A DNA stretch of 64,000 nucleotides. It comes from Brachyhypopomus gauderio. Its lineage: Eukaryota > Chordata > Actinopteri > Gymnotiformes > Hypopomidae. The notes under the pieces were generated by a model that did no database searches, had not been told where the DNA came from, and saw only the letters and a program-made list of their open reading frames with translations. Positions 17,252-54,975 of the stretch are shown in pieces; the first letter of the stretch is position 1, and each line of letters starts with the position of its first letter. Made by a program: the position numbers and the translations under genes. The DNA lies in contig NC_135225.1 in assembly GCF_052324685.1 (NCBI RefSeq), forward strand, positions 10,226,415-10,290,414. The letters run 5' to 3'.

Positions 17252-18116
17252 ATAAAGAGAGCCTCTCTCTGTCACCATCATAATATCCAGTTCTATCTCA
17301 GCATGGATTGTGATTTTGAAGACATCTACGTCGAGAAAAATATATATTGACAAAAGTGGAGCGAGTTTTCAGCTATGGGGGCATCATTCTACGGCCTCAT
17401 CGTGCACAAATGACATGCAGACTTTTGGCCAGTTTGGTCTTTTGCAAATGCAATGCAGAATAGTTTACTGAAATGTCTAAAGTTGCAGATTCCTGTTAAT
17501 TGTTCAGTTCTTATATTTGTTTGTCTTGTGTCACTCACACATGGACACACGTGTTCTCTAAGAAACCAGATAAGAGAAGAGAGGGAAAAATGCCGTTATG
17601 GTTCTTTGTATTGTACTGTGAAAATATCAGCACTTTATTTGAACATGGAATTCTACTTATGACTTTCACAGAATATTTATTTCTGGAAAATTGTAGTTTA
17701 AAGTATGAATATATTTTTTTTAAGTTTAAAAAATTGAACTGTGCAATAAATTTTTTTTATACTTCGTGTTTTCAGTTGCACATGTTTTATCGAGATTTGA
17801 GAAGAATACAGATTTTAAAAAGAACACTGAAATATCTTTTCATTTCAAGCATAAAAAACTATTAGAAACAAATAATTAAAGTTTACTAAATTGCATTTTC
17901 TAGCACTGCTCATTTGCTGAACGGTCTCTCTGTAGCTCCATAACGACTCTCCCGCGCGCACGTGCTGCGCGTGGAGGAGGGCGATATCTAAAGTGTTTTG
18001 GGATTTTAATTCCACCAATAAACAGCTCTCACTATGTCTGATAGACATCTATTGATACGAAGCAGATTGGGTGGATTACAACAGATATGAACTACACAGA
18101 AATAAACAAATAAATA

Positions 18117-19676
18117 CACTGCTCAAAAAAATAAAGGGAACACAATATAACTCCAAGTCAACCACACTTCTGTGAAACCAACCTGTTCAGTTAGGAAACA
18201 ACACTGATTGTGAATCAATTTCACCTGCTGTTGTGCAAATGGAATAGACAACAGGTAGAAATGAAAGGCAATTAGCAAGACCCCCCCTATAAAGGAGTGG
18301 TTCTGCAGGTGGGGACCACAGACCACTTCTCAGTACCTATGCTTTCTGGCTGATGTTTTGGTCACTTTTGAATGTTGGTGGTCCTTTCACACTCGTGGTA
18401 GCATGAGACGGACTCTACAACCCACACAAGTGGCTCAGGTAGTGCAACTCATCCCGGATGGCACATCAATGCGAGCTGTGGCAAGAAGGTTTGCTGTGTC
18501 TGTCAACGTAGTGTCCAGAGGCTGGAGGCGCTATCAGGAGACAGGCCAGTACACCAGGAGATGTGGAGGAGGCCGTAGGAGGGCAACAACCCAGCAGCAG
18601 GACCGCTACCTCCGCCTTTGTGCAAGAAGGAACAGGAGGAGCACTGCCAGAGCCATGCAAAATGACCTCCAGCAGGTCACAAATGTGCATGTGTCTGCAC
18701 AAACGGTGGGAAACCGACTCCATGAGGATGGTCTGAGGGCCCGACGTCTACAGATAGGGGTTGTGCTCACAGCCCAACACCGTGCAGGATGCTTGGCATT
18801 TGCCAGAGAACACCAGGATTGGCAAATTCGCCACTGGCGCCTTGTGCTCTTCACAGATGAAAGCAGGTTCACACTGAGCACATGTGATAGACATGACAGA
18901 GTCTGGAGACGCTGTGGAGAGCGCCCTGCTGCCTGCAACATCCTTCAGCATGACCGGTTTGGCAGTGGGTCAGTAATGGTGTGGGGTGGCATTTCTTTGG
19001 AGGGCCGCACAGCCCTCCATGTGCTCACCAGAGATAGTCTGACTGCCATTAGGTACAGAGATGAGATCCTCAGACCCCTTGTGAGACCATATACTGGTGC
19101 GGTTGGCCCTGGGTTCCTCCTAATGCAGGACAATGCTAGACCTCATGTGGCTGGAGTGTGCCAGCAGTTCCTGCAAGATGAAGGCATTGAAGCTATGGAC
19201 TGGCCCGCCCGTTCCCCAGACCTGAATTTGATTGAGCACATCTGGGACATCATGTCTCGCTCCATCCGCCAACATCACGTTGCACCACAGACTGTCCAGG
19301 AGTTGGCGGATGCTTTAGTCCAGGTCTGGGAGGAGATCCCTCAGAAGACCATCCGCCACCTCATCAGGAGCATGCCCAGGCGTTGTAGGGAGGTCATATA
19401 GGCACGTGGAGGCCACACACAATACTGAGTCTTATTTTGACTTGTTTTAAGGACATTACATCAAAGTTGGATCAGCCTGTGTGTTTTTACACTTTAATTT
19501 TGTGTGTGGCTCCAAATCCAGGCCTCCATTGGTTAATAAATTTGATTTCCATTGATTATTTTTGTGTGATTTTGTTGTCAGCACATTCAATTTGTACATA
19601 ACAAAGTATTCAATAAGAATATTTCATTCATATCTAGGATGTTATGTGAGTGTTCCCTTTATTTTTTTGAGCAGTG
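18117..19676 (+). mobile_element. Full-length Tc1/mariner transposon
   Basis: The ends cactgctcaaaaaaataaag and its inverse ctttatttttttgagcagtg are flanked by TA on both sides (18115-18116 and 19677-19678), the Tc1/mariner target duplication. The 1560-bp element holds one uninterrupted transposase ORF. This family, with the CACTGCTCAAA end, is widespread in teleosts and lampreys, where cross-species spread has been reported for Tc1 elements. A shorter, broken relative lies at 53925-54975. Confidence 0.95.
18358..19401 (+). CDS. Tc1-type DD34E transposase, apparently intact
   Basis: It cuts and pastes its own element at TA sites. The frame is open from 18358 (347 aa); the ATG at 18403 ([14 protein letters not shown], 332 aa) is the likelier start because the helix-turn-helix paired-like region begins there. 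The N-terminal DNA-binding half is Arg-rich ([14 protein letters not shown]). The catalytic residues are visible: FTDES, then LMQDNARPH, then LNLIEHIWD, with exactly 34 residues between the second Asp and the Glu. There is no stop or frameshift up to PRRCREVI. One difference from the common family sequence is Leu where most copies have Pro in LNPIEH. Intactness suggests recent insertion; activity is not shown. Confidence 0.93.
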
Positions 19677-20215
19677 TACATTTAAACGGCTCCCAGAGGT
19701 GCGACTCTGTTCCTAGGTTTGTGAACGACCCACCCATCATCTTATCGTTATTAAATTATATAATACGAATCTCTTAAAATGAACAGACAAATGCAGTTTG
19801 GTCGTATCCTGGTGTTTGTAATGTCACACTGTTAAATTTGTCATGGATTTCTGTGAGCGTAACGAGTCACAAATGTACCACCTCTTGTAATTCCAGCAGG
19901 AAACATGAGAGAACGTGAAGATGTTGAGATGCGATTTGAAAATAAACTACCATTAAATAAAATGGTGTATATACTAGCTTGGTACAGGAGCAAATCCTAA
20001 CCAAACTAGCACATATTTAAAGTATATATTAACACGCCAACAAGTGTACGTAATACACATTCTTTTTCTATATATTTTGTGTAGCCTACCTTGTTTTGAT
20101 TTTTCAGTTTGCCCCCCTCTCAAAACTTTTAGCACCAACAGGTGTTACGGTCAATTCAGTTCCCCCTGTTCCCCCAAAACGGCGCATGCGCGAAATCAAC
20201 GAAATCACGTAATGG

Positions 20216-20505
20216 AGGAAGTGAAAGAGAGGTAAAGAAGAGAGTGCAGGCAAGGTGGTGTGGATGGCATAAAGTGGACATGTACAGAGGAGGGAGGAGA
20301 GGTATATTGGTAGGAGGGTCTTGAGGATGGAACTTCCAGGCAAGAGGAGGAGAGGTAGACCTAAGAGGAGGTTTATGGATGGGTGGTAGAGGATATGAGA
20401 GTGGCTGGTGTGTCAGTGGAGGACACTCAAGACAGGGCCAGATGGAGGAGTTTGATCCTATGTGGCGACCCCTAAATGGGAATTGCGGAAAGAAGAAAAA
20501 GATTG
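20216..20505 (+). repeat. LINE 3' end fragment
   Basis: The text around 20380-20505 (gaggatatgagagtggctgg, then cctatgtggcgacccctaaa, ending gaaagaagaaaaagattg) resembles the 3' end of a common fish LINE that finishes in GAAAGAAGAAGA. It begins just inside the left arm of the surrounding inverted-repeat element. The assignment rests on remembered sequence character. Confidence 0.55.
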
Positions 20506-20586
20506 ATGCTGATAAACTATATATAGATTACCATTTCCCTCAGTAACTTTAATACTATCTGCATCACATTTACATTGCGAATACAA

Positions 20587-21330
20587 GGGGAACCAAATGT
20601 CCCAGTCTCTGGTAAAACCTGTTCCCCCATGTGTTCTCAGTGTTAAAGGAGGTACAGGATGAATAAATGTTACTGAATGAATTGATTATAGACAGATATA
20701 AATAATCAGCATAATTTCTGTATTTTATATCAGCTCCAGCTTTATTCTTCAAGGGGAACCAAATTTCCCAGTCTCTGGTTAAATATGTTCCCCCATGTGT
20801 TCTCAGTGTAAAGGTGGTACAGATAGTTGTAAAGTCACTGAATGAAGTGAGTATACACAGATACAGATAATCAGCACTATTATTGTACTTTATATAATCT
20901 CCAGCAGTTATTCTACATGGGGAACCATTTTTCACAGGGCTCTGGTTAAATCCGTTCCCCCTGTGTTCTTAGTGTAAAAGCACTGTGCAGTGGATAAAAC
21001 TTGTTATATACAAGGATAAGAGTCAAATACACCCCCACCTTAATTGTTGTGCTTTACATGTACACTTTCTGTCATTTAAGTGGGGGGAACCATTTTTCAC
21101 AGGGCTCTGGTAAAATCCGTTCCCCCTGTGTTCTTAGTGTAAAAGAACTGTGCAGTGGATAAAACTTGTTATTTAAAAGGATAAGAGTCAAATACACCCC
21201 CACCTTAATTGTTGTGCCTTACATGTACATTTTCTGTCATTTAAGAGGGGGGAACCATTTTTCACAGGGCTCCGGTTAAATCCGTTCCCCCTGTTCTTAG
21301 TGTAAAAGCACTGTGCATTGGATAAAACTT
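20587..21330. repeat. Tandem array of about 165-bp units, five copies
   Basis: Each unit starts with ggggaacca at about 20587, 20753, 20919, 21083 and 21249, and about 30 bases later has ttccccc(a/t)gtgttct. The two form a short stem (ggggaac against gttcccc). Copies 3-5 are nearly identical (cagtggataaaacttgttat shared), while copies 1-2 are more diverged. This indicates outward growth of the array. Confidence 0.85.
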
Positions 21331-22656
21331 GCTCTGTAAAGCAAAAACAATATACCACATGCTCAAGTGATTTAAATATTGCGTGAAGCCAAATGGGATA
21401 ACATTTGTCGTGTAATACATTTTTATTTGTATTTAGAAATAAAATCTGTATTTAGACAAAAGTCCTTTTAGGCTGTAGAACATCCAGGACACAGCAAACA
21501 ACAAATAAGTCTGTTAAAAAACAACCTTTAAAGTGTGAACAATACACGTCTCTTTATGTTTCAATAAATAATTTAAATAGTTTAAAAAACGCTTTAAATC
21601 TTGCTAGCATGCAAGTGAACTAAAAAATGCAAGAGGCTGAAAAAGTAGCGTAAACAATTAAACATCGGAGTAATTTTTGTACATTTAATCCTCTGCTAAA
21701 ACACCTGAGCTTTACAGCACAGTTAGTCACAAGCACACAAAGTTAACTTTAGCTAGAGAAACAAAACCAACCCGAATAATAACGTGTACACATCGAGTAA
21801 AGGCGATAACCCAACAGCAGACTAAAGCGTGATTTCGTTGATTTCGCGCATGCGCCGTTTGGGGGGAACAGGGGGAACTGAATTGACACCGGCACTGGTG
21901 AAGTATCTGATAGTATCCGATGTGAAGTCAATAAGAACTGAAAGCATTTCTCAGACTATTGTGAATATAAAACATATGGTTAACTTAAGCTCTTACTGAT
22001 ACCTACTGAAATGTTCTGCTTTTGCACTTAAATGAGACACAGCCTACTCGATATGACACACAATTCCCACAAAGGAATGGGTCAGACTAACTAAAAAGTA
22101 GTTCTAATTAAGTGGAACATCTAATATCCTCCCGGGGTTTAAGATCACGTGCACTCACTTCAATAAGCCAAGTAAAACCAGCTAAGGATTAAAATTGTAG
22201 TTAGAACCATACAAAAAACATACAGAAATGTGTTTAATGTGTTTGTATTAAACTGATTTTATGTAAACATAATTTCATAAGGATTAGGATACCTCCATTC
22301 TGGAATGATCGTGATTAATATAATACATAGCAGCTCTACAGGGTGGATATATCAACTTGAAAGTGCTTATGAATATAAACGAAAGCGAACAGAATCGCCG
22401 GGCACCAGAGTAAGCCTTGTGCTCACAGACAAATTTAAGTACGCCACTGAACGTAAAAAATAGCCTATACAGTATATTTTTCCAGTCGATGTTGTATTCG
22501 TATGCTATCCGGATCGCAATGATTGACTTTCAAGTTAAATTCGTAGCCAGTGTTGTGGCTGACACCGAAGTCATAAAACTGTTTTGTATCTGGGGATTAA
22601 GCTCCAAGACTATTTTGTGATGTACCGGTCATTATGACGCCACGTTAAATACGGTG

Positions 22657-22662
22657 TATAAA
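22657..22662 (+). promoter_or_regulatory. TATA-like box of the unrecognised gene at 22777
   Basis: The sequence ggtgTATAAAgcagcg lies 115-120 bases upstream of the first ATG. A start of transcription near 22685-22695 would leave a short 5' leader. This is inference from spacing and motif only. Confidence 0.4.
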
Positions 22663-22776
22663 GCAGCGTTCCGGGACGATTGTTACATTTGTTTCGATGT
22701 GCAGTCAAATGTTAGACTGAGAATACTGATCATTTAAATTATTCCTTTACAACATAGTTAATTTTTTGAAGTGAAG

Positions 22777-25183
22777 ATGGACACAGCAAAAAGAAGGGAC
22801 AAACTGTGGTCCAGCATTAACAAGACCACTGTTTCTGCTTCTGCTTTGACCACCTTAGTTAAATCTACCACCAGGGCAGATGTCAGTTCGACATCCACTC
22901 TGTTAGGGGCAGGTGGCACCAGACACACTTTTGGAGCAGCTCTGACAAGTGATAGCCTTAACAGCTCAAGGTTCTTGCCAGCAGAGTTGAAGCCAGTCAA
23001 ACCGGCTTGGTGTCCTGATAGCAAGTTGGACATGACTAAGGTCTCCGGCACTCTCAAGAATTAACTGCTCCTTTCATAATCTTAATGAAGAATCATTTTA
23101 GCAGTCCTGTTAACATTTGTGTTTCTGTTTCTTAGGCTCCTTTGGGTTTGATTGACCCGGAGGATGAAAACAACACTCAGGAGGTCATAATCAAGAGAGT
23201 TGTGTCTGAGGATGATGAGATTTGTTGCAAAGACCCAGTCCAAGGAGAGACCCAGTCCAGGGTCCCGAGTGCCAGGGACAGGAGGGAGTTAAAGCCGGTC
23301 AAACTGGCTTGGTGTCCTGATAGCAAGTTGGACATGACTAAGGTCTCCGGCACTCTCAAGAATTAACTGCTCCTTTCATAATCTTAATGAAGCAGTCCTG
23401 TTAACATTTGTGTTTCTGTTTCTTAGGCTCCTTTGGGTTTGATTGACCCGGAGGATGAAATCAACACTGTTGGAGCAGCTCTCCCTAGTTTTAGGTGTAA
23501 CAGCAGAAGGATCTTGCTAGCAGCCTCTCCTCCTTCCACTGAATCTGGACGCATGCGGAATGCCAGGACCAGTTTGCCACCTATCATCACTAAGCTGAGT
23601 GAGAATGCCAAGAGGCTCCTCCAGAAGTACGCAGCTCAAGGACAGGTACACTTGTGGGATGGGGAGACGGCTCTGTTATGCTCCTTTCATAATCTTAGTG
23701 AAGGATTATTTTAGCAGTCCTGTTAACATTTGTGTTTCTGTTTCTTAGGGTCCTTTGGATTTGATTGACCCGGAGGATGAAAACAACACTCAGGAGGTCA
23801 TAATCAAGAGAGTTGTGTCTGAGGATGATGAGATTTGTTGCAAAGACCCAGTCCAAGGAGAGACCCAGTCCAAGGTCCCGAGTGCCAGGGACAGGAGGGA
23901 GTTAAAGCCGGTCAAACTGGCTTGGTGTCCTGATAGCAAGTTGGACATGACTAAGGTCTCCGGCACTCTCAAGAATTAACTGCTCCTTTCATAATCTTAA
24001 TGAAGCAGTCCTGTTAACATTTGTGTTTCTGTTTCTTAGGCTCCTTTGGGTTTGATTGACCCGGAGGATGAAATCAACACTGTTGGAGCAGCTCTCCCTA
24101 GTTTTAGGTGTAACAGCAGAAGGATCTTGCTAGCAGCCTCTCCTCCTTCCACTGAATCTGGACGCATGCGGAATGCCAGGACCAGTTTGCCACCTATCAT
24201 CACTAAGCTGAGTGAGAATGCCAAGAGGCTCCTCCAGGAGTACGCAGCTCAAGGACAGGTACACTTGTGGGATGGGGAGACGGCTCTGTTATGCTCCTTT
24301 CATAATCTTAGTGAAGGATTATTTTAGCAGTCCTGTTAATATTTCTGTTTCTGTTTCTTTGGTTGCTATGGTTTTGATTGACCTGAAGGATAAAAAGGAC
24401 ACTCAGGAAAGTAATGGGGTAATGGAGACCCAGGCATCCAGAAAGAGGGTCACAAACAAGAGAAGTGTGTCAGAAGATGCATCCGTCATTAACAAGGGTC
24501 TGGTCTCTGCTGCTGTTCCTCCCATGACCACTGCTACATGTTTCTCCCGAGAAGCTGCTACCTCTCCAGATGACATGAATGGCGAGATCAGTAGGACACC
24601 TGTAACCACTTGGATGGGTGAACATACCTCAAGATCTGTAAAGATTCATGCCAATTCTACACACCATAATTCCCAGACGTGTCTCTGTGAAATTGCAAAG
24701 AAGTGTCTTTCCCAGAGCTACGGTTATGCTTCAGTACAGGTATGTGGGGAGGAGCTGTAAAAGTGTGTTCCACTGTTTGTATGGAATGTACTGTATTGTG
24801 AAAAATCACATTGGCAACACTGATAGAATTTGTCTTCATATCCATCAGAGACATGCCACTGATCTGACACATGAGGAAAGTGAACAGAGGGATGGAGAGG
24901 AGAAAAAGAAGAGTGAAGTTCAGGGAATGAAACATAAAAAAAAGAACAAGTGGTGGAGGAGGTGAGGTTTTAGATATGAACTATTACATGAAGCAGTTCT
25001 CCCTTTTTGAAATCTCACCTCAGGACCAGAAGCAACACTTTGAGTAACAAGAATGTCATTTATGAAACCAGCCGTGTTTTCAGCCATTAAGATGTGCTGT
25101 GCAGTCGCCTTCCATTACAAAATGCATTTGTTCTTTTTTGTTACAGGCTCCTATGTTTCCTTCCTTGCTTTTCTGCTAAATAG
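22777..25183 (+). CDS. Unrecognised multi-exon gene made of amplified exon modules
   Basis: Not recognised. Proposed exons: 22777-23040 (88 codons, start MDTAKRRDKLWSSINKT), 23136-23342, 23427-23645, 23749-23955, 24040-24258, about 24362-24739, 24849-24961 and 25147-25183 (stop tag), about 547 residues. All junctions from the first to the sixth exon are phase 0. Four exons start with APLGLIDPEDE or a close variant. B-type exons (69 codons) end AWCPDSKLDMTK, as does exon 1; C-type exons (73 codons) end LLQKYAAQGQ. The last part is basic (EEKKKSEV, KHKKKNKWWRR). Acceptors are tttcttag in the module exons. Donors are CAG|GTACAC for C exons but the weak AAG|GTCTCC for exon 1 and B exons. Without that splice each of those would end seven codons later in SGTLKN and a stop. 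The sixth exon has TG where AG is expected. No domain or membrane segment was seen. It may be a young or decaying gene. Confidence 0.45.
23136..24361 (+). repeat. 613-bp tandem duplication containing two exons and two introns
   Basis: Bases 23136-23748 are repeated at 23749-24361 with only a few differences (for example aagtacgcagc against gagtacgcagc, and ggctcctttggg against gggtcctttgga). Each unit holds one B-type and one C-type exon, so the duplication adds 142 codons in frame. An older duplication is implied because B and C themselves share their first 11 codons and upstream intron sequence. Confidence 0.95.
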
Positions 25184-25205
25184 AGACCAGCAGGCTTGAT
25201 CAGAG

Positions 25206-25702
25206 GCGGACTGTGGAGAAAAAGTGGCCGGGACAGTATAGTCTACAGCGGCAGTTGTGGTGTTATTGTTGTTGTTGTGGTGTTATTGTGTTGTGGTGTT
25301 ATTGTGTACGTCCCTCGGGTGGGCGGAGCCCGCGATCCGTCTCACCTGAGGGTCGTTTGTTTGGAGTGGACTGTGGACTGTGGAGAAAAAGTGGCCGGGA
25401 CTACAGCATAGTCTACAGCGGCAGTTGTGGTGTTATTGTGGTTGTTGTGGTGTTATTGTGTTGTGGTGTTATTGTGTACGTCCCTCGGGTGGGCGGAGCC
25501 CGCGATCCGTCTCACCTGAGGGTCGTTTGTTTGGAGTGGACTGTGGACTGTGGAGAAAAAGTGGCCGGGACTACAGCATAGTCTACAGCGGGAGTTGTGG
25601 TGTTATTGTGGTTGTTGTGGTGTTATTGTGTTGTGGTGTTATTGTGTACGTCCCTCGGGTGGGCGGAGCCCGCGATCCGTCTCACCTGAGGGTTGTTTGT
25701 TT
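25206..25702. repeat. 170-bp tandem repeat, three copies
   Basis: Units start at about 25210, 25380 and 25550 with actgtggagaaaaagtggcc and share cgtccctcgggtgggcggag. The copies are nearly identical. Because 170 is not a multiple of 3, each copy is read in a different frame; open frames here are an effect of the repeat, not genes. The array begins 23 bases after the stop of the gene at 22777. Confidence 0.93.
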
Positions 25703-25741
25703 GTCTATGTCTTGTCTTTGTACCAGTTGACCGCTGGTTAT

Positions 25742-25862
25742 TATATCCTTAATTTGGATCGGTTCACGGGTTTTGGTTTGCGCACATTTCCTATTAAACC
25801 ATCATTTTTTCCCTGAGACTTGGCGTGATTGCTTCCATTTTATTTTGCTCACCGTGCCCGTC

Positions 25863-25866
<4 letters not shown>
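25742..25866 (+). repeat. Dispersed repeat end, inverted relative near 34416-34540
   Basis: The stretch ggttttggtttgcgcac, cctgagacttgg, ttgcttccattttatt and ending cccgtcaca recurs in reverse complement at 34416-34540. The shared terminus (…cccgtcaca, inverted tgtgacgggc) looks like the end of an LTR-type or similar dispersed element. It is followed by a (TA)n run at 25867-25894. Confidence 0.55.
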
Positions 25867-25898
<32 letters not shown>

Positions 25899-26083
25899 GC
25901 ACATAAGTGGTTGCAAATTCAGTTTTATCCTTACAAACAAAAAACCCTTCACCAGGTGTTCGGTTCAAGAAAAAATGACAAAGGAGCTTCCCAGCTGGCA
26001 CACGACCGACCTTCAACGTTGAAATGTGGTTGAAATATAGTTGAAATACTGTCTGTTGTTGTTTCAACGTTGAAACAACGTTG

Positions 26084-26236
26084 AATCAACGTTTAATGTT
26101 AAATGGTTGCGCAAACGTTGAACTATTAACGGTGAATCAACGTTTAATGTTAAATGGTTGCGCAAACGTTGAACTATTAACGGTGAATCAACGTTTAATG
26201 TTAAATGGTTGCGCAAACGTTGAACTATTAACGGTG
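26084..26236. repeat. 51-bp tandem repeat, three copies
   Basis: Three near-perfect units contain atgttaaatggttgcgcaaa and cgttgaactattaacggtg, inside the inverted-repeat element at 25990-26919. Confidence 0.95.
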
Positions 26237-26357
26237 AATCAACGTAATATCTTCAACCTGCCTTTGTATTACCATTTCAAGTTAAAAAAACACATACAAT
26301 AAAAAAGTACAAACAACACTTTGGCATTGGCTGAGGGTTTTGAAAGAGGTATTAATT

Positions 26358-26388
26358 ATTATTATTAGTAGTAGTAGTAGTAGTAGTA

Positions 26389-26441
<53 letters not shown>
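26358..26441. repeat. (TAG)n-(TAA)n microsatellite
   Basis: A run of about eight TAG units passes into a long TAA run, inside the element at 25990-26919. Confidence 0.95.
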
Positions 26442-26443
<2 letters not shown>

Positions 26444-26581
26444 AATTTTTTTTTTATTAATTCGTCCAAAAACGTCGTCAAAAACAGGCAGGTATTAACC
26501 AGGAAGACAACATCAGGCAATTAAACAGTTTTAAATGTTTTGAGGCAGAAACAAAACTTCGCAATGACAAATTGCAGGGTA

Positions 26582-26700
26582 GTCGTGGCCTGGCGGTTAG
26601 GGAACTGGACTTGAGACCGGAGGGTCCTGGGTTTGAGTCCCAGACTTGAGGCCATGACTGAGGTTGTGTGGTGGTACTCCGAGTAAAATGAAAGACTAAA
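26582..26700 (+). mobile_element. tRNA-derived SINE head
   Basis: The text gtcgtggcctggcggttagg (A-box-like) is followed 40 bases later by gggtttgagtccc (B-box-like). The same head is better preserved in the SINE at 51042-51345. Nested in the element at 25990-26919. Confidence 0.65.
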
Positions 26701-27567
26701 AAAATATAAAATTATTCTTTTTTCATTATGGCATACAGTTGTTTTTATCCTCTCTCCCATGCAATTTTGAGCATCATGAACGTGAATTTTATGGTTTATT
26801 CAAGGTTGAATGTATGACGTTGAAACGACGTTGGCGTATCAACGTTGATTCACCTTTCAAAATCGACACAAAATCCAACGTTGATTCAACGTCGATTCAA
26901 CGTTGAAATGCCTGCTGGGTTGGAACTTAAAATTGGAGCTTGAGAATGTTTGAATTTTAATGTTCAACATAATGTTGCATTTTCCAGATTTGAAAAGTGC
27001 TGGAATTATGGCTAATGTACTTGAAAATGCTTGAAATTAACCGAATTTTGTGTTTTCACAACACAAAATATCTATCTGACTGGTTCGCTTGTCTTACGTT
27101 ACATCACGTCTTGAATCAGTTATTCACTACAGGGCTCATCTCATAACTCACTCTATATTTATTTATTAGCCTAGGTGTAGGTGCATACAACACTGCTCAT
27201 ATCAAAGATAGTGTGTGTGTGTGTGTGTGTGTGTAGAGACCTTTGGTCTGGGCATTTGAAAAGGAACGAGTAGGTAATTAGATTTTACTTGTTCTATCGC
27301 TATGGTACTGCTCTGTGATTTTAACTATAATACCTTTCACTCTTATGTGAATATGTGATTCAACTTTAACACTTATGATTCAGCTGGTTAAAACTTTGAT
27401 GCACGCAGTGAAAGCGAACTCGACTGGACTCGCTCCTGCCGGACCTAAGTGCCAAAAAATCCGTTTAATGCATATCAAATGATTGGGAGTCTTAGATAAT
27501 TTTTCTAAGACATCATTCTTTACTCCTTAAGATAGCGGTTTTAATTTTTCTTACTACAAGGCGCGCG

Positions 27568-30500
27568 ATGCAGAACTGTCTTTTCGCCGTGACGGTGCTT
27601 TTTGCCCACAATTTTGTCGGAGCCGACCCGAAGGCGAAATGTACCGTCACATGCGACGTGAGTAAATGCCCGAGTCCAAGCTGCCAGAACGGGTACGTTC
27701 CAGACCGCTGCAACTGCTGTCTTGTATGTTCCCTGGGCGAGGGTGCGTCTTGTGGGCGCAGAGATGACCTCCCTTGTGGCAACGGTCTGGAGTGCTCCGA
27801 ATGGAAAAAGTCCTCAAAGAGGGTTTGTACGTGTAAGCTGGGCTATAAGGTGTGTGGCAGCGACGCCAAGACCTACGGAAATCCCTGCAAGCTGAAGGCT
27901 GCGAGCCGTAAAGCGCTGCGACGAGGGCTTCAAGCAATAAGCCAGAAGAACAAGGGTGCGTGTGCACCTACTACAGGTAGGTCGCTGATTGTCTTTCTCA
28001 AATCTGGACAATCTTATTATCACTTTATAACGCGCTTCAAAGATATTAGTCAATTACAGTAATCCATCGTTTGTCGCGGGAGATACGTCCCAGAACCACC
28101 GATAACCGAAAATCCGTGAAGTAGAAACGGTATTTATTTAAGTATTTATACAGTATATTAAGGCTTTATAAACCCTCCCCACACTTTTATGCTACATAAA
28201 CCTCTCCCATTCCATTAATAACCATTCCCACACTGTTCTGTGCATGTATTGTACCTTTACACTTACTTTACTGTACTGTAAAATGTTTTGAATTCTTAAA
28301 GAAAATGTAGGCACTGTACTGCCAATCAGGCGCTGGGATACAAAGCAGCACTCTGGTCTGGTTTGGTTTCATATCTAAATGAACTTAGATGTGATTTAGA
28401 TATGATATTTCTAAAACATTTAATCTCCTGAGATTTTAAATGAGATTTAACAGCAAACATACACCCAACCTGAGAAGTGCTCACTGAAGCTTTGTCGAAT
28501 GGAGGTTCTGAGCATGCAGCCCTCATGGAAGAGAAGAACGATGAGGAGGGTGTGCTAGTTTCTTTGTAGTTAAACCCTAAATAGCCATCTTTGATCAGGT
28601 TCTTTTACCACCAGATGCAGTGTGTAACTTCATCCTAGAGATGTAATTTAACCCAGTTCAGTTTAACAGACATGGGAGAGTGGAGAAGGTCCTGACACTC
28701 ATTCACGCCTGTGATGAAGGGAAATTAAACTATGTTGTGCCTACCAGATCTGATTATAACTGGAAACCACTGTCTAGTGGACATAGCATGATCATGAAAG
28801 CAGGAATTGAAAAAAATAGATGAGACTCTTCAGTCAAGCAAATTCAGCACTTGAGCATGAATTTTCAAGTTTATTTATCACATGCAAGACACATCACACT
28901 GGACATTCCTCACAGTGAAAGTTTTGGCTTCAATCTCTGATGCTCTACATAAACACTGCAGCAATAAATCTAACCAGTTTCACTACACAGCATGCAATAC
29001 ATAACACAGTGCAAAAGGACAAGCAAGTTAAAAACATTGTGCAAATGACCATGTGTAAACAGGTTCTGCAAAAGACCATGTGCAAACAGGTTCTGCAAAA
29101 GGTTAGGGTAATAACATTCAGTTGTCTATAGTCTATAGCAGGGGTACTCAACTGGCAGTCCTGTCCGGACCCAATCTCATTCCTGATTAACTGGATACGG
29201 ACCAAAAAAAAAACATATTTATTAATTTTGACGGGATAATTAATTTTAAACCGGAACATTTATTTCAGGGCTATTGAAAAAACACTCCGTCACGAGTGTT
29301 ACGTTTGCCACCCCGCTCAACAACTTACGTTCGTCACCCCCCGGACCTCAGGTCACAGCTATCTGCCAAAATTGGACCGCGGACAAATTTAGTTGAGTAC
29401 CCCTGGTCTATAGAGTGGTATTATATAGTTAAAGATACACGAGAGGCTGTAACTCCACGCCACCCTCTGAGCAAACAGCAGTTTTGGAAACACTATGTGA
29501 ATGTGTGTGTGTGACTTAAATGCAGAGCCACCACTTCTGAGCATCATGTTATTAACATCCATTATTCTTTCTGCTAGTACAGATCCCACGCACCATAACA
29601 GCCCCAGGTACAAGTTTAACTTCATCGCAGATGTGGTGGAAAAGATCGCCCCTGCCGTGGTCCACATCGAGCTCTTTCTCAGGTGAACGCCGCCTCCGTG
29701 GCGATGCTGTTTGGATAAACAATTGCCTCTTAACGGAGCACTGAAATGTACATAATCAAATGCATGTTTGTTATAACTGGATAATATAATTGACATTCAA
29801 GTGTGTGCAATGATTTTTCAATGTGTGTGTCCAGCCATCCTCTGTTCGGGCGCCATGTGCCGCTGTCGAGCGGATCAGGTTTCATCATGACACAATCTGG
29901 CCTGATCGTGACCAATGCTCACGTGGTGACCAGCAGCTCCACGGTAACAGGCCGCCAGCAGCTACGTGTACAGCTGCACGATGGACAAACATATGAGGCC
30001 TCCATCCGAGACATTGACAAGAAGTCTGACATCGCCACCATCAAAGTGAACCCACAAGTAAGAGGAGATACCTCATCACTGGCCTGCAAGAGGCTCTCTC
30101 TAAAATTCTCTCTAAAAATCCCACAAGAATTCTAGTGTGTAATACATGAGACCCTGGTCCTGGATTACTGGAGATTATAGTGATTTCCTTGATCTAATCA
30201 AAGCTACTGAACCTGCATATTAACTGCTGAGTTGAACGAACCTGTCGCTACTGCCCAGCAACAGCATGCCTTTTGATGTTGCAGAATTTTCTTGCACAGA
30301 TTAGTCAGTCCCCTTCGAGGAATTTAGAGGTGTTAATACACTGTCACAGGTTTCACGTAATCCCCATGGGCTGTGCACTGCAGCTTGTCAGCAGGTCTAA
30401 GATGTGCATAAGACATGTCGTTGCAGCACCAGAGGCTGCATGAACCCATGTCACAAACTCAACCAGCTGATTAGTCACTTGCTCCTCACCACGTCTAGAC

Positions 30501-33500: not shown

Positions 33501-35605
33501 CTTTGTGCACTGGTGCACAGTCATGTTGGAAGAGGAAGGGGCCAGCTCCAAACTGTTCCCACCAAGTTGGGAGGATGGAATTGTCCAAAATGTTTTGTTA
33601 CGCTGAAACATTCAGAGTTCTTTTTATTGGAATTAAGGGTCCAAGTCCAGCTCCTGAAAAACAACCCCACACCATAATCCCCCCTCCACCAAACTTTACA
33701 CTTGGCACAACGCAGTCAGTCATGTACCATTCTCATGGCAATCAACAAACCCAGACATGTCCATAAGATTGCCAGATGGAGAAGAGTGATTTCTCACTTC
33801 TGAGAACGTGCATACAGTGCTCCAGAGTTCAGTGGCGATGTGCTTTACACCACTGCTTTGCACTTGGTGATGTATGTCTTGGATGCAGCTGCTCGACCAT
33901 GGAAACCTATTCCATGAAGCTCTCTGTGCACTCTTTTTGAGCTAATCAGAAGGCCACATGAAGTTTGGATGCCTATAGTTATTGACTCCGAAGAAAGTTG
34001 TCGACCTCGTCACACTGCGCTTCACCATCCGCTTCATCAGTTTACGTGGCCTACCACTTTGTTGCTGAGTTGCTGTCGTTCCCAAACACTTCTATTTTCT
34101 TATAATACAGCTGACAGTTGACTGTGGAATATTTAGGCGCGAGGAAATTTCACGACTGGATTTGTTTCACGACTGGATCACAGTTCCACGCTGGAATTAG
34201 CTGAGCTCCTGAAAGTGACCCATTCTTTCACAAATATTTGTAAAAACCTAGGTGCTTAATTCTATACACCTGTTGCCATGGAAGTGATTGGAACACCTGA
34301 TTCCGATAATTTGGATGGGTTACAATATAGTGTATATCATTGAATGTTTTCTGTCCATGTCAGTTTCAGATTTGAGGACTGACATAGCATAAGTAAAATA
34401 TCAAGGTTTCCATTTGTGACGGGCAGGGAGTGTGAAATAAAATGGAAGCGACCAAGCCAAGTCTCAGGGAAAAGGGAGGTTTTAATGTAGAAAGTGCGCA
34501 AACCAAAAACGCTGTAGACAGGGGTGACCAGCCGGGGGCCCGCCGTTGACACCATTCTTCTGGGGTAGCGGTTCCCATGGTGATAGCATCATGTAGTTAT
34601 GTTTTTGCATCTGTTTCAGTCTTGCCTTATGCTTCATAATTTATGTATTGTTTTCACCTGTCTTGTTTTCCATTATTTATAAGGGTACACATACTTAAAT
34701 GTTGTATATATACTATATGTACACTTCTTGTCTTTGTGTCTTTTAACAATGTGAGGATCGAGGCAGGATGTTGAGGCAAGAGAGTGTTTAAAGAAAGAAT
34801 GCTTATTTGACATTAATGTAACGTCGAAACAAAGTCACACACACAAAGACTGAAAATGGATGCCGACCACACGCATAGTATTGGCTCTCTTGGTCTGAGG
34901 GTTGGCTGAAGGGGGAGGGCAAAACCTCCCTTCTTGCCATGCTTCTTCTTGGGCATCCTGGAGTTTTTAGACTTTCTCTAACAATACAGGTTTGAGGCAG
35001 GATGCTGATGCGAGAGCAGTGTTTAAAGAAAGAACATTTATTTAACAGTAGGGTAATGTTGACACAAAGTCACACACACAAAGTGTTATAGCTCCACTTC
35101 TACTCTTCAGGTGATTATACAAGAAATGTTCCTAAACATTTTTTTTTATCTTATTTTGACACAGAATGTTTGGACTCCACATAGTTTAATATAGTGATTA
35201 ACTTTTTGTACTTATTTTATTCATTTAATGCTAATTGTCTTTTTTTTCTTTAGCCTAATTCAAGAACTCAAACAGCAGAACGCAGATTTCCCAGATGTCA
35301 GCAGTGGGATTCTTGTTCATGACGTTATTCCAGATTCCCCTGCACAAAAGTATGTTGTTTAAACAATCTAAAATGCATTTTATACACCAAAGGAGATCAT
35401 CATATTTATGCATTATTTTATGGTTTCTATGTTCAGAGCTGGGCTCATGACGGGTGATGTCATAATCAAGCTCAATGGCCACCCATTGGTCAGCACTGCT
35501 GATTTACAATTAGCTCTACAAGAAGACTCACACCTTCTTTTGGAAGTTCATCGAGGTGATGACGATTTATTGTTCAACATTGAACCTCATATTAACACGC
35601 AGTAA
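27568..35605 (+). CDS. htra3: HTRA3, secreted serine protease
   Basis: Nine exons: 27568-27976, 29583-29682, 29835-30057, 31626-31820, 31933-31965, 32066-32180, 32956-33013, 35254-35349 and 35437-35605, giving about 465 residues with consistent phases. Residues 1-20 are a signal peptide ([19 protein letters not shown]). Next come an IGFBP-like Cys-rich region ([18 protein letters not shown]) and a Kazal-like region ([13 protein letters not shown]), both in exon 1. The protease domain has its triad: His199 (TNAHVV), Asp235 (KKSDIA) and Ser313 (GNSGGP). A C-terminal PDZ domain covers about 370-465 ([16 protein letters not shown]). HTRA3 degrades matrix proteins and dampens TGF-beta-family signalling. 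HTRA3 rather than HTRA1 or HTRA4 is favoured by [28 protein letters not shown] and the cpz gene downstream. Exon 5 is only 33 bases yet carries the catalytic serine. Confidence 0.96.
29139..29405. mobile_element. Small hAT MITE with 8-bp target duplication
   Basis: The ends caggggtactcaact and agttgagtacccctg are perfect 15-bp inverted repeats. The 8 bases gtctatag flank both ends (29131-29138 and 29406-29413). At 267 bp with no coding capacity, it lies in htra3 intron 1, about 180 bases before exon 2. An internal stretch (gctcaacaacttacgttcg) is shared with the element at 54569-54873. Confidence 0.95.
30803..30898. repeat. 32-bp tandem repeat, three copies
   Basis: Units of cagtgacagtgtgtttcact plus gatggtatgtct lie in htra3 intron 3. 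The following stretch to 31330 looks like part of a dispersed fish repeat (tttattaaagggaattcc, then many short adenine-rich segments), but no ends were defined. Confidence 0.9.
33162..34332 (-). mobile_element. Degenerate Tc1-like transposon
   Basis: The ends cactatattgccaaaagtat and gttacaatatagtg are flanked by TA (33160-33161, 34333-34334). On the minus strand, transposase fragments can be read, such as [18 protein letters not shown] and [15 protein letters not shown], interrupted by stops and frameshifts. The third catalytic Glu region reads LIKQLW instead of LIEHLW, so the Glu is replaced. It is in htra3 intron 7. A dead copy. Confidence 0.88.
34416..35090. repeat. Dispersed repeat pieces and a direct duplication in htra3 intron 7
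   Basis: Bases 34416-34540 are the inverse of the repeat end at 25742-25866. Downstream, about 100 bases at 34745-34850 recur at 34983-35085 (shared gtttaaagaaagaa, and caaagtcacacacacaaag), as diverged direct repeats. Their origin is not recognised. Confidence 0.55.
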
Positions 35606-53924: not shown

Positions 53925-54975
53925 AAATCTTTATTTAATACATAGTGGAATGCATTGAGAACAAAATAACAATATCTACAGTATGTAACAAAATAACTAT
54001 AAATGTAATTGGATTTGGAATCATACTCTAAATCAAAGTGGAAAATCAAATGACAGGCTGATCCAACTTCTGTGGAAATTCCTCAAGACAAGTTAAAATG
54101 AGTCTCAGTAGTCTGTGTGGCCTCCACGTGCCTGTACGACCTCCCTACAACGCCTGGGCATGCTACTGATGAGATGGCGGATGTTCTCCCAAGGAATCTC
54201 CTTCCATACCTGGATTAAAGCATCAGTCAACTCCTGGACAGTCTGTGGTGGAACGTGGCATTGGTGGATGGAACAAGAAACAAGATGTGCTCGATTGGAC
54301 TCAGGTCTGTGGAACAGGCAGGCCAGTCCATAGCATCAATGCCTTCATCATGCAAGAATTGCTGACAAACCCCAGGCCTAGCATTGTCATGCATCAGAAG
54401 GAGCACAGAGCCCACTGCACCAGCATATGGTCTCAATGTGTCTGAGGATCTCATCCCGGTACCTAATGGCAGTCAGGGTACCTCTGGCTAGAACATGGAG
54501 GTCTCTGTGGCCCTCCATAGAAATGCCTCCCACCATTACTGACCCACTGCCAAACCAGTCATGTTGGACAGGGCTCTCAAGTCGCATTGAGCGTGTGACA
54601 CACGCATTTGACCGTCTTCACACGCTCACACGTCACACTTCCGATTTCACACGGCGAGAAAAAAAAAATCTAGTTTATTTACCTCCGATCCATATCTATG
54701 TCGCCCTCCACTGGCGATCGATCACGATATACAAACCCCCCATGAACCCCCCCCCCCCCCCCCCCTCAACAACTTACTTTCGCCCCCCCCCCCCGCCCCC
54801 GCTCAACAATTAACGTTCGCCCCCCGTCAACAACTCTCACACTCTGACATGAATCCAGAACTTGAGAGCCCTGTGTTGGAGGAACATTTTCCACGGCGTC
54901 TCCAGTCTCTGTCACGTTGGTTGACTTGGAGTTACATTGTGTTTTTTAAGTGTTCCCTTTATTTATTTGAGCAGT
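53925..54975 (-). mobile_element. Decayed relative of the Tc1 element at 18117
   Basis: Minus-strand text matches the same Tc1 family: ACNIL-side region, GVCQQFLHDEGIDAMDWPA and SPIEH can be read, with stops and deletions. The right end ttccctttatttatttgagc at 54955-54973 is the family terminus. The left end is worn. It is split by a small hAT element at 54569-54873. Confidence 0.85.
54569..54873. mobile_element. Small hAT-type element inserted in a Tc1 copy
   Basis: The ends cagggctctcaag and cttgagagccctg are perfect 13-bp inverted repeats. The 7 bases tgttgga flank both sides (54562-54568 and 54874-54880), and removing the element restores the Tc1 transposase text. It contains long C runs (about 54747-54767 and 54783-54793) and shares gctcaacaactta motifs with the element at 29139. 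Confidence 0.9.

Follow-up and report, generated by a model that had tools for sequence, protein, structure and literature searches.

Exon units that multiply inside a gene are known from the NBPF Olduvai doublets and from tandem exon duplications. In the NBPF doublets, a short unit of two exons and small introns is amplified within a single gene, and this is the likeness that they bear to the locus described here. According to PMC9313022, the doublets are present in mature transcripts, whereas one of the two repeated blocks at the present locus (B) lacks the donor of its gene family; no sequence kinship is claimed. Tandem exon duplications (PMC9013439) likewise consist of tandem exons inside one gene, whereas the repeated blocks here are chimeras of two exons. 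The locus lies in a 64,000-nt stretch of Brachyhypopomus gauderio DNA, referred to in full as the window (C15:10226415-10290414), in which a sequence-only reading had proposed a new gene built from amplifiable phase-0 exons. Comparison with the other copies in the genome makes it very probable that the locus is instead a rearranged, degenerate paralog of an unnamed multicopy gene.

The repeated-block locus

The locus sits between a Ras-family gene (11.1-12.8 kb), which we take to be RAB33B, and a trypsin-like/PDZ protease (29.8-35.6 kb), presumably HTRA3. Pfam, by which these were assigned, also identifies a frizzled-domain carboxypeptidase at 57-63 kb, taken here as CPZ, and sequence of NAA15 type at 2.8-7.3 kb. 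Other occupants of the window are a Tc1-like transposon (18115-19678) with 29-bp perfect inverted ends and a DDE transposase ORF, part of which recurs inverted at 54010-54563, and an element with 60-bp inverted ends (98%) at 20150-21887 that contains internal tandem repeats of ~165 bp. The sole Rfam match is a UnaL2 LINE 3' element at 655-708. A 170-bp tandem repeat (2.9 copies, 25208-25703) begins 25 nt past the last coding base of the locus, and 25771-25866 recurs inverted at 34414-34508.

The block order A-B-C-B-C-D was verified at 22777..25183, and E and F then follow (Table 1). Given the borders of the sequence-only reading, B (207 nt) and C (219 nt) are indeed open and made of whole codons, and the near-exact duplication of a 613-bp unit appears as a self-match of 97.4% identity over 730 nt. 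At an offset of 613, 10 of 683 positions differ, 4/426 in exon and 6/257 in intron. Blocks A to E are all open in the model frame, as are D, E and F of the window, and the spliced model A-B-C-B-C-D-E-F comprises 538 or 547 codons, depending on the start of D. The start context gaagATGG agrees with the Kozak rule. The reported TATA-like box is present as well; the window + strand holds 30 TATAAA words, so that the one at 22657 is weak evidence by itself. The extent of 22777..25183 had been drawn too narrowly, since family homology begins at 22492, and block A stays open past its claimed donor. If translated, the basic tail KKxKWWRRLL..LPC would fit a membrane-associated terminus better than the nuclear protein suggested earlier.

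Table 1. Features of the repeated-block locus, in window coordinates
Feature	Position	Strand	Basis or remark
Family-conserved 5' flank (promoter side)	22492..22602	+	78% identity to C17a flank, E 3e-21
TATAAA box	22657..22662	+	script word search
Block A, 95-codon open frame, ATG to TAA	22777..23064	+	parent exon 2 pieces in the wrong order
Intron-2 remnant and block B1	23065..23363	+	parent exon 3 start, then exon 2 nt 15-38 and 305-419
Block C1	23427..23645	+	exon 3 start and exon 2 end (nt 694-763, from 783)
Block B2	23749..23955	+	near-exact copy of B1, 3/207 differences, all amino-acid changing
Block C2	24040..24258	+	near-exact copy of C1, 1/219 difference
Block D, parent exon 3	24362..24739	+	acceptor AG changed to TG; the nearest AG beyond it, at 27 nt, is in frame
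Block E, parent exon 4	24849..24961	+	splice scores, parent alignment
Block F, parent exon 5	25147..25183	+	terminates ...RRLLCFLPCFSAK stop

A multicopy gene family with two intact members

A DNA search of the whole 796.5-Mb genome returned at least 62 matching stretches, which we grouped into 22 places including the window, that is, at least 21 others. Thirteen of the 22 lie on C14, three each on C1 and C17, two on C15 (the window included) and one on C8; re-matching at E 1e-4 recovered 20 of the 21 other places, the one on C8 failing. Two near-identical copies on C17, at 3.49 Mb (L025+L033) and 3.56 Mb (L026+L034), are intact by sequence. With exon borders fixed from sequence patterns, they have five coding exons of 16, 842, 393, 119 and 52 nt (exon 1 being ATG AAG AAG AAT TCT G), four introns that are all GT-AG, and a single open frame of 473 aa. 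This gene is referred to below as the parent.

Many further family copies are broken as well, several C14 copies among them not open. Exon 3 shows stops or loss of frame in L008, L010, L012, L015, L016, L017, L019, L020 and C1a and is open in L011, L013, L018, C1b and the C17 pair, and the phase of exon 4 is lost in L008, L010-L013, L016, L017 and L019 and kept in L018, L020, C1a, C1b and the C17 pair, this scoring by patterns being incomplete for L009, L014, L015 (exon 4), L021, L027, L028 and C1c. In C1b, exon 2 is split over two frames. Eleven family places (L010-L019, L008) are gathered at C14:17.07-17.55 Mb in two oppositely facing groups. For the one C14 unit tested, a protein-kinase ORF (L036:4870-5259; Pkinase E 5e-23) was found about 5 kb upstream, and a similar kinase-type ORF was seen by eye in the L018+L037 stretch.

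The sequence-only reading could not name the family, and the searches leave it nameless. The 473-aa parent gave nothing significant in Pfam (best DOCK_C-D_N, E 0.23) or in the PDB (best 2osd, E 2.1), and none of the papers that came up in literature searches names the family; the parent may well be catalogued elsewhere, Pfam and PDB being the two libraries tried. The spliced window model had no Pfam match above cut-off, the sub-cut-off matches being DUF7088 (24.7 bits; cut-off 27.8), Acetyltransf_18 (21.9; cut-off 22.7) and four weaker ones. No match was found in Pfam for the single blocks A, B1, C1 and D, nor any significant relative of the window model in the PDB. AlphaFold models of C1 (mean pLDDT 66.9, one helix at 52-71) and D (mean pLDDT 47.9) offered too little for a structure search. 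Four matches among phage records, all to Streptomyces phages (E 0.07-0.08), were judged to be chance, and of 79 pattern matches among viral contigs none was confirmed. A match to a transposon family, named in the sequence-only reading as a finding that would speak against a gene, did not appear in the Pfam search or the repeat comparisons: Pfam shows no transposase or reverse-transcriptase domain in the blocks, the unit is not flanked by any of the 25 listed inverted pairs (28 in total) in 18000-29500, and no direct repeat pair in the window self-comparison flanks it either.

Parent pieces in the window copy

Piecewise alignment of the window to one intact copy, C17a (E from 1e-145 to 0.033), maps the locus as a mosaic. 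Block A begins with 22768-22984, which corresponds to parent exon 2 nt 537-744, and continues with 22987-23061, which corresponds to exon 2 nt 345-419, so that the order is reversed within A. In the following segment, 23065-23182 begins in parent intron 2 and reaches exon 3 nt 38, 23208-23231 is a weak match (E 0.033) to exon 2 nt 15-38, and 23249-23363 matches exon 2 nt 305-419. Intron 2 then recurs, running into exon 3 nt 24 (23367-23459), and is followed by exon 2 nt 694-763 (23473-23545) and by a piece that starts at exon 2 nt 783, crosses intron 2 and ends in exon 3 (23586-23795). The second 613-bp unit has the same piece order as the first, and 24199-25182 is continuous from exon 2 nt 783 to exon 5 (1041 columns, E 2e-145). 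This map makes A and B exon 2 fragments, in B placed after the exon 3 start. Both are cut at exon 2 nt 419 and fused to intron 2 without a donor, and the frame of A, past the fusion, meets a TAA at 23062-23064; in B1, where the family donor is also absent, an in-frame TAA comes next. Over the tails of A and B, 3 of 57 positions differ before the claimed donor and 0 of 50 after it.

The window copy belongs to the family by sequence homology, which extends over exons 2-5 and introns 2-4. It has in common with the parent the 5' flank, the exon 2/3 pieces, introns 2-4, exons 4-5 and the basic C-terminal tail with its WWRR. The parent, however, has exons 1-5 once each, in order and bounded by GT-AG introns, whereas the intact five-exon structure is absent from the window copy: there is no match to exon 1, exon 2 is scrambled, exon 2/3 pieces are duplicated, A and B have lost their donors, and the acceptor of D reads TG. 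The parent codon phase is nevertheless retained at 15/15 anchor points, and the five rearrangement junctions are all in frame, which would happen by chance about 1 time in 240 if they were independent; two of them border the weak 24-nt match.

Two other copies are also rearranged. An inverted copy ~67 kb away (L009) has the truncated start in common with the window copy at 96.5% identity; its order is simpler, with the head of A followed by the tail of C, and there are stops in that frame. On C14, L010 has another fusion of the exon 3 start to later exon 2 sequence, longer and frameshifted, so that such fusions are not unique to the window locus.

Splice sites

Splice sites were scored in consensus bits, with frequencies that approximate the vertebrate consensus. 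The donors proposed after A, B1 and B2 all read AAG|GTCTCC and score 0.43 bits; 35% of all GTs in the window, counted over its two strands, reach or exceed this value. The junctions 23040/23136 and 23342/23427, together with 23955/24040, were not confirmed, and their donors are mid-exon nucleotides in the intact paralog (23040 maps to parent exon 2 nt 398 of 842). If each repeat of an amplified exon module is to bring its own acceptor and donor, C1 and C2 pass, as phase 0-0 chimeric exons carrying the family acceptor (9.66 bits) and the family donor (4.72 bits), and B1 and B2 fail, their claimed donor being a mid-exon position in the parent. The whole-codon, phase-0 character ascribed to the modules holds for B and C as to length, but only C has both family splice sites, and the proposal of a new gene with amplifiable exons of phase 0 is not supported, A and B being exon 2/3 fragments without the family donor.

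The shared tttcttag acceptor was found in four of the five block copies; before D, at a junction that the sequence-only reading had not listed, TG replaces AG and the sequence reads TTTG rather than TTAG. The AG is kept at this position in 14/14 other aligned copies, the window copy alone having TG. The first AG downstream (24389), 27 nt past the lost acceptor, is in frame and weak (3.61 bits). In PMC2374985, TG 3' sites are described only as alternatives to AG and never as the sole site, and a TG-AG limit of 28 nt is stated, within which the 27-nt spacing at D falls. The C-terminal exon pair stands as proposed, with strong donors and acceptors at 24739/24849 and 24961/25147 (donors of D and E, 9.55 and 11.01 bits). 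A scan for chains in which an open frame spans two short introns with strong sites, run on both window strands and on one strand each of 12 shuffled windows, found D-E-F as the only match in the window and none in the shuffled windows; the same scan is insensitive, detecting nothing in the neighbouring known genes either.

Coding signal and divergence

Third positions account for 13/65 differences over nine block comparisons (P 0.013), which are not independent and from which the B1/D row was omitted as redundant; without the C/D and A/D pairs, which on the later map set exon 2 against exon 3 pieces and may not be homologous, the count is 8/39. The 'synonymous structure' that had been invoked for the locus is contradicted by the changes themselves, 13/13 of which alter an amino acid (3 in B1/B2, 1 in C1/C2, 9 in B2/D over the first part of D). 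On a codon-usage score for which 2/14 training stretches were negative, B1 and B2 outscore all 98 non-coding ORFs, and C1 and C2 exceed the 95% point. The coding character of A, D and E is only moderate, and the open frames of A, C and D are each beaten by a stop-rich frame.

Exons differ more than introns in 9/15 chosen copy pairs (p below 0.05), for example by 30.9% against 17.3% between C17a and the window and by 8.1% against 3.8% between C17a and C1b; the other six pairs, all closely similar copies, show no exon excess. Between C17a and C1b, synonymous differences in exons 2 and 3 amount to 0.11-0.165, introns 3 and 4 differ by about 3%, dN/dS in exons 2 and 3 is 0.55-1.0, and exon 4 has four changes, none synonymous; C17a and C17b give dN/dS values of 1.08 and 0.29 from few changes. 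Positive selection is not claimed, since homogenised introns account for the exon excess equally well, and the family is regarded as fast-changing, with no firm claim on selection.

Origin of the locus and alternative explanations

Parts of the sequence-only reading are borne out, namely protein-coding origin, local duplication of blocks and considerable divergence between copies; the outcome is a locus of real coding origin and real local amplification that is probably a dead rearranged copy. From the observed homology, piece order and missing splice sites, we infer the following order of events. A deletion would have brought the promoter flank up against the latter half of exon 2; the copy accordingly starts without exon 1 and without the front part of exon 2. 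The exon 2-intron 2-exon 3 segment may then have been duplicated in tandem, with internal deletions that joined the exon 3 start to exon 2 pieces and so gave the chimeric blocks, and tail sequence would have been copied between A and B. Duplication of the 613-bp B-C unit would be a recent step. Missing are the exon 2 end and donor in A and B and the acceptor AG before D. Translation of a transcript from the promoter flank would begin at the ATG of block A and end with the TAA at 23062, so that the locus could express a peptide of 95 aa at most, and a full-length product would be absent. The chimeric exons were probably once translated, because the five junctions keep the frame and every block is open.

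Some points weigh against a degenerate paralog: the parent phase is kept throughout, the frame is open from A to E, the D-E-F sites are excellent, and an AG lies in frame 27 nt past the lost acceptor. A more far-reaching and unlikely reading takes the chimeric exons as a working source of new protein variants in this fast-changing family, frame-keeping rearrangements having been selected; this copy, or close ones whose splice sites are intact, would then still make a modular protein.

A shorter product that skips most or all of the array is improbable. Enumeration of splice paths linking the ATG with the last exon, over 149 GT and 203 AG, gave eight in-frame paths with all sites at or above 4.5 bits, none through B or C, and 30 at 4.0 bits, some of which include a 21-nt piece of C2. 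One path (22777-22912, 24570-24739, 24849-24961, 25147 on), encoding 151 aa in frame, has the top total among five tied on the best weakest site (5.0 bits); an alternative joins A, cut at 22881, to the C exons, and further in-frame variants exist. However, the sites 22912 and 24570 map to the interior of parent exons 2 and 3, and with so many GT and AG searched some skipping path is expected.

Still less probable is a functional modular gene A-B-C-B-C-D-E-F of phase-0 exons with weak or non-canonical splice sites. The open blocks, matching phases, 538- or 547-codon model, start context, good acceptors and good D-E-F sites fit such a gene, but it requires splicing at three donors that correspond to mid-exon codons of the intact copy and score no better than an ordinary GT, and a TG acceptor or the weak AG at 24389 before D. 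Least probable of all is an assembly artefact in which a single 613-bp copy was assembled twice, as the 97.4% identity between the units might suggest, for the units differ at 10/683 positions and part of the odd block order recurs in the inverted neighbour L009.

As a degenerate paralog, the locus teaches that the shuffled exons of a multicopy gene can mimic convincing in-frame 'modular genes', and that comparing copies within one genome tells such mimics from working genes.
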